From: Bacteroidia bacterium
GTDB lineage: Bacteria; Bacteroidota; Bacteroidia; UBA4408
DNA length: 64,000 bases
Assembly (NCBI GenBank): GCA_020845635.1
Contig: JADLFI010000006.1
Span: 1 to 64,000 of the forward strand
Direction of reading: 5' to 3'
Shown here: one piece after another, positions 57,816 through 60,940 of the stretch
How the letters are laid out: every line of letters begins with the position of its first letter
Numbering within the stretch: position 1 is the first letter of the stretch
The notes under the pieces: model-generated
Database searches by the model: none
What the model was told of the DNA's origin: nothing
The model's input: only the letters and a program-made list of their open reading frames with translations
Position numbers and translations under genes: made by a program

Positions 57816-59162
57816 ATGACAAATATTAATACTAAAATAGCTATACTGGGTGCCGGAGAAAGCGGTGTTGGGAGTGCTGTGCTTGCCAAGCAAAAGGGCT
57901 ATGATGTATTAGTAAGTGATAAAGGGAATATTAAGGATAAATACAAACAAATACTTGAAAAGTATCAAATAAAATATGAAGAAAATAACCATGATGAGGC
58001 ATGGATTTTGTCTGCGTCAGAAGTGATTAAAAGTCCCGGTATTCCGGATAAATCCCCATTAATTGAACTACTACATCAAAAACAAATTTCGGTAATTTCA
58101 GAGATAGAATTTGCTGCCCGTTACACCGGTGCCAAATTAATTGGAATTAGCGGGACAAATGGAAAAACAACAACAACTTTACTAACTTATCATATACTTA
58201 AAAAGGCTGGTTACAATGTTGGGTTAGCCGGTAATGTAGGTAAGAGTTTTGCATTTCAGGTTGCCACAGAAAATTTTGATTATTATGTAATAGAACTGAG
58301 TAGTTTTCAACTTGACGGGATGTTTAAAACCAGACTCAACATTGCCGTATTATTAAATATTACACCCGACCATTTAGATAGGTATCAGTACAATTTTCAA
58401 AACTACATTGACTCTAAGTTTCGCATTATTCAAAATCAAACAGCCAATGACTTTTTTATTTACAGCTATGATGATGAATGGATAAGCAAGAACTTGGAAA
58501 CACATAAAACTCCGGCAAAACATCTTCCTATTTCATTACAACAAACGTTTGAAGATGGAGCCTATATCAAAGAAAAAAATTTAATTATTAACCTAAACCA
58601 TAATATATTCTCTATGTCAATCCACGAATTAGCCCTACAAGGTAAACACAATCAGTACAACTCTATGGCAGCTGCTCTTTCTGCCAGATCCCTAGAAGTT
58701 CGTAATGAAAATATTCGCGAGAGTCTTGAAGATTTCGTTAATATTGAACATCGCTTAGAACTCGTTACCAAGGTTCATGGTATTGAATTTATCAATGATT
58801 CAAAAGCTACCAATGTTAACTCTACATGGTATGCCCTTGAAAGTATGAATAATCCTGTAATATGGATTGTTGGAGGGCAAGATAAGGGCAACGATTATAG
58901 CATGCTGATAGAATTAGTAAAGGATAAAGTAAAGGCTATTGTTTGTCTGGGATTAAATAACACAAAAATAATTGAGGCTTTTAAAAGTATTGTACCGGTT
59001 ATAGAAGAAGCCCGTACTGCCGAAGAAGCGGTGAAAAAATCGTACCGTTTGGGTAAAAAAGGCGATATAGTTTTATTATCTCCGGCTTGCGCTAGTTTCG
59101 ATTTATTTGAGAACTATGAAGACCGAGGACATCAATTTAAACAAGCAGTAAGGGCACTTTAA
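57816..59162 (+). CDS. murD: UDP-N-acetylmuramoyl-L-alanine--D-glutamate ligase
   Basis: A 448-residue Mur ligase adding D-glutamate. The N-terminal UMAG-binding domain begins KIAILGAGESGVGSAVLA. The central ATPase has [16 protein letters not shown], and the C-terminal D-Glu-binding domain shows EHRLELV, INDSKATN, IWIVGGQDKGNDY and LSPACASFDLFENYEDRG. All expected binding residues (Arg of HR, Asp and Lys of NDSKATN, Ser and Phe of the last motif) are present, so it is the active copy. It ends 13 bases before a C-terminal-domain paralogue. Confidence 0.96.
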   Translation: MTNINTKIAILGAGESGVGSAVLAKQKGYDVLVSDKGNIKDKYKQILEKYQIKYEENNHDEAWILSASEVIKSPGIPDKSPLIELLHQKQISVISEIEFAARYTGAKLIGISGTNGKTTTTLLTYHILKKAGYNVGLAGNVGKSFAFQVATENFDYYVIELSSFQLDGMFKTRLNIAVLLNITPDHLDRYQYNFQNYIDSKFRIIQNQTANDFFIYSYDDEWISKNLETHKTPAKHLPISLQQTFEDGAYIKEKNLIINLNHNIFSMSIHELALQGKHNQYNSMAAALSARSLEVRNENIRESLEDFVNIEHRLELVTKVHGIEFINDSKATNVNSTWYALESMNNPVIWIVGGQDKGNDYSMLIELVKDKVKAIVCLGLNNTKIIEAFKSIVPVIEEARTAEEAVKKSYRLGKKGDIVLLSPACASFDLFENYEDRGHQFKQAVRAL

Positions 59163-59175
59163 TACATTCAATAAC

Positions 59176-59739
59176 ATGAAACCACAGAGTAATATCAGCA
59201 CATTAAAGGCTACCTCAGCAGACAGATTAATAAAAATCAGAAAGGACTTTATTAAAGATCGTCTTATTAATTCTCTAAATGAAGAGCATAACTATGAAAT
59301 TGTAAGAGTAATCAATGGAGTAACCTATATCAATAATTCAGCTTCTACAGATGTAGATAGTACCTGGCTGGCTCTAGAGAAAACAGAAGGTAATATAATT
59401 TGGATTGTTGGTGGAGTTGACCGTGGAAATGACTATGCGATGCTTAAAGAATTGGTAAATGATAAAGTAGTACATATTATTTGTTTAGGAGCTTATGTAA
59501 CTAAAATTTATAAAGAATTTTTCTTTAGCAATAGCCGAATAATTATAAACTCGTTAAGCACCGATGAAGCTGTTCATCATGCTTCAATATTGGCTAAGAG
59601 CGGTGATACTGTTCTGTTCTCACCTGCCTGTGCCAGTTACGATTTATTTGAAAATATTGAAGACCGAGGATTAAAGTTTAAAAAATCGGTGAATGATTTG
59701 GAAAGCGGTTTACTTTTTAAAAACTATCCTAATAAATAG
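59176..59739 (+). CDS. Stand-alone MurD C-terminal-domain paralogue
   Basis: A 187-residue protein that aligns without large gaps to the C-terminal domain of the adjacent MurD, beginning in its linker helix. By eye about half of the aligned residues are identical, including IWIVGG, GNDY, DKV, LSPACAS-type FSPACAS, DLFEN and EDRG. The P-loop and UDP-MurNAc domains are missing. The HR motif is EHN, and NDSKATN is NNSASTD, so the Arg, Asp and Lys that contact substrate or phosphate are lost. It cannot ligate alone. The intact frame and tight spacing (13 bases after murD, 16 before ftsW) suggest it is maintained; a regulatory or structural role is possible. Confidence 0.8.
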   Translation: MKPQSNISTLKATSADRLIKIRKDFIKDRLINSLNEEHNYEIVRVINGVTYINNSASTDVDSTWLALEKTEGNIIWIVGGVDRGNDYAMLKELVNDKVVHIICLGAYVTKIYKEFFFSNSRIIINSLSTDEAVHHASILAKSGDTVLFSPACASYDLFENIEDRGLKFKKSVNDLESGLLFKNYPNK

Positions 59740-59755: not shown

Positions 59756-60940
59756 ATGAGCGAATTATTTAATATAAAGATAAAAGGCGATAAAGTTATA
59801 TGGATGATGGTTTGTGCTTTGTCTATTATCTCATTATTGGTGGTATATAGTTCTACCGGTACTTTGGCGTACAAGTTTCAATCAGGTAATACGGAGTATT
59901 ACTTGATAAAGCATGCCTTTATATTAATTTTCGGTCTCACTTTAATGTATGCAACTCATAAAATTAAATATACTTATTTTTCCGGAATTTCAATAATTGC
60001 AATCATTATAGCAATTCCACTATTGGCGCTTACCCTCTTAAAGGGAAGTAACCTTAATGAAGCAAGCCGTTGGTTGTCTGTTCCTGGTACCTCTCTTACT
60101 TTTCAAACTTCCGATTTTGCCAAATTAGCTTTAATAATGTATGTTTCACGAGTACTTTCACATAAGCAAGATAAAATAACAAGTTTCAAAGAGGCTTTTA
60201 TTCCAGTGGTAATTCCTGTAATTATAGTATGCGGATTAATTTTACCGGCTAATTTTTCAACCGCAGCAGTACTGTTTGTTACCTGTTTTGTAATGATGTT
60301 TATTGGACGTATCAGCTATAAACATTTAGGTGCGTTGCTAGGTGCCGGAATCATTGCCGGATTATTGATATTAAGTGTTGGTAAATATGCCCCAAAAGTA
60401 TTTCCACGTTTTGGCACATGGATGAAAAGAATAGAAAATTTCAGTAGCAATGACAAAGATAATAAGGGCAACTTTCAGGTAGAGCAATCAAAAATAGCTA
60501 TTGCCACCGGTGGCGTATTAGGAAAAGGACCCGGTAATAGTTCACAACGAAATTTTTTACCACATCCTTATTCTGATTTTATTTATGCTGTAATTATCGA
60601 AGAATATGGTTTGTTCTTTGGGGTGCTTATAGTGCTGCTCTATTTAATATTACTCTTTAGAGGAACAAAGATTGCCACACAAAGCCCTCGCATGTTTGGG
60701 TCATTGCTTGCCTTTGGATGTGCATTTAGTTTGACTTTTCAAGCAATGATTAATATGGCCGTAGCCACCAACTTGTTCCCGGTAACAGGTCAGCCACTAC
60801 CTATGCTTAGTATGGGAGGTACATCTATATGGTTTACAAGTATTGGAATAGGAGTAATTTTAAGCGTAAGTGTTGGTGTAAAATCCGAATTGGAAAAAAA
60901 TAAAACACAAGCATTAGAAAAGGAGGTAGAACTTGCTTAA
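59756..60940 (+). CDS. ftsW: Septal peptidoglycan polymerase FtsW
   Basis: A 394-residue SEDS-family membrane protein with ten helices that polymerises lipid II together with FtsI. The N-terminal LLVVYSSTGTLAY, the central LNEASRWLSVPGTSLTFQTS and the C-terminal NLFPVTGQPLPMLSMGGTSI (with the conserved Pro and Ser-Xaa-Gly-Gly) identify the family. Context in the dcw operon makes it FtsW rather than RodA. It overlaps murG by eight bases. Confidence 0.95.
   Translation: MSELFNIKIKGDKVIWMMVCALSIISLLVVYSSTGTLAYKFQSGNTEYYLIKHAFILIFGLTLMYATHKIKYTYFSGISIIAIIIAIPLLALTLLKGSNLNEASRWLSVPGTSLTFQTSDFAKLALIMYVSRVLSHKQDKITSFKEAFIPVVIPVIIVCGLILPANFSTAAVLFVTCFVMMFIGRISYKHLGALLGAGIIAGLLILSVGKYAPKVFPRFGTWMKRIENFSSNDKDNKGNFQVEQSKIAIATGGVLGKGPGNSSQRNFLPHPYSDFIYAVIIEEYGLFFGVLIVLLYLILLFRGTKIATQSPRMFGSLLAFGCAFSLTFQAMINMAVATNLFPVTGQPLPMLSMGGTSIWFTSIGIGVILSVSVGVKSELEKNKTQALEKEVELA

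Follow-up and report, generated by a model that had tools for sequence, protein, structure and literature searches.

The 64,000-nucleotide stretch analyzed here (the window) carries a dcw operon with the gene order mraZ, rsmH, a small open reading frame (ORF) in the ftsL position, ftsI, murE, mraY, murD, S, ftsW, murG, murC, and ftsQ, with dcw gene names given from position and similarity. This order is ordinary apart from S, an intact ORF (ATG to TAG) with a gap of 13 nt to the murD stop and of 16 nt to the start of ftsW, coordinates that confirm the initial annotation, which was made from the sequence alone. The genome of the window holds one S and one MurD. The genes in question, and one segment of S, are as follows.

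57816..59162, + strand: murD, full length, with every catalytic residue present (ORF, NCBIfam, residue alignment)
59176..59739, + strand: S, a free-standing paralogue of the MurD C-terminal domain, 187 amino acids (ORF, BLASTP, NCBIfam, AlphaFold2, Foldseek)
59194..59268, + strand: predicted N-terminal helix, S residues 7-31, corresponding to the last MurD central-domain helix plus hinge (AlphaFold2 secondary structure, MurD alignment)
59756..60940, + strand: ftsW, the next operon gene (length, position, similarity of orthologues)

S was aligned with the adjacent MurD by BLASTP over 167 columns (48% identity; E value, 3e-49), covering MurD residues 283-448 only. The Pfam model Mur_ligase_C (PF02875) scored window S at 26.9 bits, a failed test just under the gathering cut-off of 28.4, and a diverged S from family f41 cleared the same cut-off with 29.9 bits. 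The NCBIfam murD model (TIGR01087) gave 130.4 bits, below the curated cut-off of 211.95 for a whole-protein MurD ligase, and only model positions 278-440 of 441 were matched. Because S scores below both cut-offs, it could go unnamed in automated annotation. An AlphaFold2 model of S, built on a shallow alignment (23 homologues), reached a pLDDT of 85 and a pTM of 0.79, and the top Foldseek matches of this model were the C-terminal parts of MurD structures (7u35: 1.8 Å, 143 columns, 34% identity); together the two place the fold of the Mur ligase C-terminal domain in S. The protein starts upstream of that domain and retains the last central-domain helix (MurD about 283-308), so the earlier description of S as a copy of the third MurD domain only was right about the matched region and too narrow by this helix. 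Both the UDP-binding N-domain and the ATP-binding central domain (GKT motif) are absent from the 187-residue frame, as had been claimed; BLASTP, Pfam, and the ORF content agree on this. S cannot make the MurD product alone without ATPase and UDP-sugar domains, and on its domain content MurD ligase activity by S alone is excluded.

Relatives were searched for the short gene in two class surveys (60 and 247 genomes), with the region behind murD read in about 97 genomes. This yielded 51 S proteins (155-193 amino acids, all open frames) from 17 sampled families of Bacteroidia, a sample in which fragmented assemblies may conceal further copies. S lay directly behind murD in 50 of the 51, the exception (G048) being upstream of ftsW and away from murD, and the murD-to-S spacing was between -20 and 45 nt in 48 of 49 measured cases and 84 nt in the other. 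Within the order of the window, seven of eight genomes carried S (G005 showed MurD only). A chance origin of window S is excluded, because three congeneric species and many other families have this gene in the corresponding slot. A scan of 75 genomes from the phylum's other classes turned up no S, the one double match being a MurD split over two contigs. More than 20 families include genomes in which murD and ftsW nearly abut with nothing between them, and families f21 and f41 each include genomes with and without S; S was thus lost repeatedly or moved. Carriers of S include metagenome-assembled genomes labelled Chitinophaga pinensis MiH-14oct19-135 and Bacteroidota bacterium KLAP123. Second, unlinked, and more diverged S-like copies were seen at L153:8283-8822 (G010), L054:2902-3444 (G056), L154:9195-9833 (G052), and L050:2671-3288 (G048), those of G010 and G052 both adjoining an aldehyde dehydrogenase gene.

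Three segments of S carry the residues compared with MurD (MurD numbering).

59287..59298, + strand: H-N-Y-E, S residues 38-41, corresponding to the MurD hinge motif HRxE; His301 and Glu304 kept, Arg302 lost (alignment)
59329..59352, + strand: INNSASTD, S residues 52-59, corresponding to INDSKATN; Asn316, Ser318, and Thr321 kept, Asp317, Lys319, and Asn322 lost (alignment)
59617..59670, + strand: D-Glu-side loop, S residues 148-165 (FSPACASYDLFENIEDRG); Ser415, Arg425, and Gly426 kept (alignment)

At the equivalents of Arg302, Asp317, Lys319, and Lys348, window S has N, N, A, and R. The alignment agrees with the changes read initially (HR to HN and NDSKATN to NNSASTD, with SPACAS, DLFEN, and EDRG kept) and adds the replacement of Lys348 by Arg. 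Asp317 and Lys319 are catalytic contacts of MurD, and the contacts made by Arg302 and Lys319 are on the nucleotide side. Arg302 is a handle for rotation of the MurD C-domain, whose hinge loop is Thr294-Glu304 (PMC4816537), and the carboxylates of D-Glu-type ligands are held by Lys348, Thr321, and Ser415 (PMC3527612). These positions were compared in the 51 S and in 96 MurD proteins of Bacteroidia. Practically every catalytic position was intact in the MurD proteins. His301, Glu304, Asn316, the Pro of SPAC, and Gly426 were invariant in S (51/51), and Ser318 (50/51), Arg425 (50/51), and Ser415 (47/51) nearly so; variable positions were Arg302 (retained in 30/51), Asp317 (40/51), Lys319 (28/51), Thr321 (39/51), and Lys348 (13/51). 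At least one of Arg302, Asp317, Lys319, and Lys348 was lost in 42 S proteins, and the nine with all four comprised eight f12 proteins and that of G004. The full trio Thr321/Lys348/Ser415 was present in 10. The residue pattern says that S needs the fold and the hinge face, not the reaction.

Estimates of dN/dS in the genus of the window, which are rough because synonymous sites are near saturation, were 0.11-0.17 for S and 0.05-0.11 for MurD. Where dS was measurable, S had values of 0.01-0.06 in families f4, f10, and f12; in f9, the values were 0.21-0.46 for S and 0.25-0.40 for MurD. In f12, S (0.013-0.039) evolved about five- to tenfold slower than MurD (0.11-0.18), with every pocket residue tested retained. 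The MurD C-domain showed no relaxation in S carriers. S thus combines homology to MurD, purifying selection, and catalytic residue loss, the sequence marks of a pseudoenzyme paralogue. That S is a decaying duplicate without function, which its patchy presence and the mostly longer branches of S than of MurD in C-domain trees might suggest, is very improbable: all 51 frames are open in 17 families, and dN/dS is well below 1 (in f12 much lower for S than for MurD), which refutes decay for the groups measured. Dismissal of a decaying fragment by the initial annotation was well founded, since relatives carry S in place and under selection, and a pseudogene is ruled out by dN/dS and the open frames.

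In the C-domain trees, where long branches leave the placement of S unsure, S and MurD were separated by two label changes. A tree in which all S were held together had a likelihood 12 units above the free search result (AU p 0.75), and the simplest reading is accordingly that S would have a single origin in one old duplication of murD near the base of Bacteroidia. A separate origin of S in f12 is possible, with the constraint of f12 S and MurD as one clade not rejected (AU p 0.56). A recent duplication confined to the lineage of the window was rejected, since S occurs in many families and the trees separate it from MurD.

In families f20 and f33 the murD-ftsW slot is often filled by ORFs (about 157 and 121 amino acids, respectively) from which the MurD motifs are gone. 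In HHalign the f20 form matched S with a probability of 95.7 (E value, 9e-9; 142 collinear columns) and the f33 form with 89.9 (E value, 2e-6; 73 columns), and controls with reversed or column-shuffled S reached at most 3.8. Both forms scored higher to S than to MurD, in a comparison in which the S profile was also the more diverse. One representative of each form gave no Pfam or NCBIfam match. Close pairs had dN/dS values of 0.10-0.29. The f20 form (L155-L174) retains an N-terminal "LLxAR" helix and has a conserved motif of its own, R.HGKLWGMD.F.W. We infer from weak homology and from place that the two forms descend from S. The ORFs of the f33 form (L175-L194) start M.KLI.I.GQ.FYYSTI and match the S profile less strongly, over its second half.

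These data bear on whether S binds a ligand. As a sensor, S would bind D-glutamate or UDP-MurNAc-Ala-Glu in its residual pocket and signal precursor supply to a partner, a role for which the near-constant Ser415 and the complete pocket and slow evolution in f12 speak. However, the losses of Lys348 and Thr321, the scarcity of the full trio, and the f20 and f33 forms without any of the motifs weigh against it. With pocket residues lost in most families, D-Glu sensing is unlikely as the general function of S. The earlier proposal of a domain binding a MurD ligand fares likewise: it is weakened for most members, in which Lys348, Thr321, Arg302, and Lys319 vary freely, and still suits f12 well.

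For a test of contact with MurD, naturally adjacent, in-frame murD and S from 16 genomes were read through their stop codons as a joined AlphaFold2 input. The resulting model (pTM, 0.60) had both parts folded and no confident interface, which, given 16 alignment rows and the tether, is weak negative evidence. No MurD column was significantly associated with the presence of S after correction. S as a regulator or scaffold of MurD in particular, proposed in the initial annotation, was not borne out by these two results. Another reading is a domain swap, in which S would replace or compete with the mobile C-domain on the MurD core and so alter MurD activity. Such a swap would fit the retention in S of the central-domain helix and of His301 and Glu304 at the hinge, together with the known rotation of the C-domain on its hinge (PMC4816537), but 21 of the 51 S proteins lack the rotation handle Arg302, the MurD C-domain shows no relaxation where S is present, and the joined model has no confident contact; we regard it as improbable.

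The reading we prefer, to which we give a nearly even chance, is that S arose by an old partial duplication of murD and became a non-catalytic adaptor or scaffold of cytoplasmic wall enzymes. The duplicated part, the last central-domain helix and the C-terminal domain, would have become a free-standing protein without catalysis that the dcw operon expresses along with MurD, FtsW, and MurG. Produced in step with these neighbors, S would then work by binding other proteins, as a regulatory subunit or adaptor for the enzymes of wall-precursor synthesis in the cytoplasm (MurD, or the MurG/FtsW end). In favor of this are the constant slot and strand in 17 families, purifying selection, the kept fold and hinge or packing residues, and the f20 and f33 forms, which keep the place and not the pocket. 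Mur enzymes have been reported to form complexes elsewhere (PMC6420597). Place, selection, kept residues, and such complexes make contact with a co-expressed neighbor the best reading of S. Against it we count the two results with MurD given above, the fact that many families and some species within carrier genera lack S, and the unlinked copies outside dcw. Such copies in f4, f42, and f46 (two beside an aldehyde dehydrogenase gene) indicate that the domain can leave dcw and, with the motif-free remote forms, would suit recruitment of S to a task outside wall synthesis, with the operon serving for expression only. This seems rather unlikely to us, given that one family after another has its linked copy between murD and ftsW. 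A broader form of the adaptor reading, put forward tentatively, is that S may belong to an undescribed, fast-changing, MurD-derived, non-catalytic family that is a standing part of dcw in Bacteroidia and couples precursor synthesis by MurD to the machinery of membrane and division (MurG/FtsW), some families having shed the MurD motifs and become invisible to domain databases.

No described system of this type was known to the initial annotation, and a search of the open-access literature, covering dead Mur ligases and genes lying between murD and ftsW, likewise found nothing relevant. The closest known protein is MurD itself (TIGR01087; C-terminal domain, PF02875), with which S shares third-domain sequence, fold, motif order, and operon; unlike MurD, S has no UDP-MurNAc or ATPase domain, and most S lack at least one catalytic contact. 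PAP11, the MurE-like subunit of the plastid-encoded RNA polymerase, is a Mur-ligase relative reused as a subunit of another complex, and the polymerase entry 8r6s_Q was among the weak Foldseek matches of S; PAP11 is, however, a full-length MurE-like plant protein in a complex unrelated to S. MurT keeps the central ATPase domain and is an enzyme, whereas S is one domain without ATPase. MurT (with GatD; PDB 6gs2, 7q8e; PMC6085368) is nonetheless, like S, a Mur-ligase relative, and it serves another wall-synthesis step with a partner protein. The MurG oligomer of Bordetella pertussis, a scaffold of Mur enzymes (PMC6420597), is comparable in concept, as a complex of cytoplasmic Mur proteins specified by dcw genes; that scaffold is an active enzyme with no dead domain, and S is a non-catalytic domain.

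Many Bacteroidia actively maintain this small and so far overlooked gene, which points to a helper protein of wall synthesis without catalytic activity. Few bacterial gene clusters have been studied as well as dcw, and antibiotics target its products; a further gene kept in this cluster across a large bacterial class would add a component that wall synthesis as now understood lacks. The family also forms a graded natural series, from pocket-complete f12 to motif-poor f20 and f33, in which to ask what a Mur-ligase domain is capable of without catalysis and if the Mur enzymes of the cytoplasm assemble into complexes.

Other murD-ftsW gaps had features of their own. The gap in G225 (L125) holds a 99-amino-acid ORF with no significant match to S. 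In G242 (L132), the gap at about 1730-2140 on the murD strand holds a degenerate repeat of (F)GxxRxHFGxx units, and the ORF there was left uncounted as S because of this low-complexity repeat. In f12 (L077-L083, L041), 120-290 nt separate S from ftsW.
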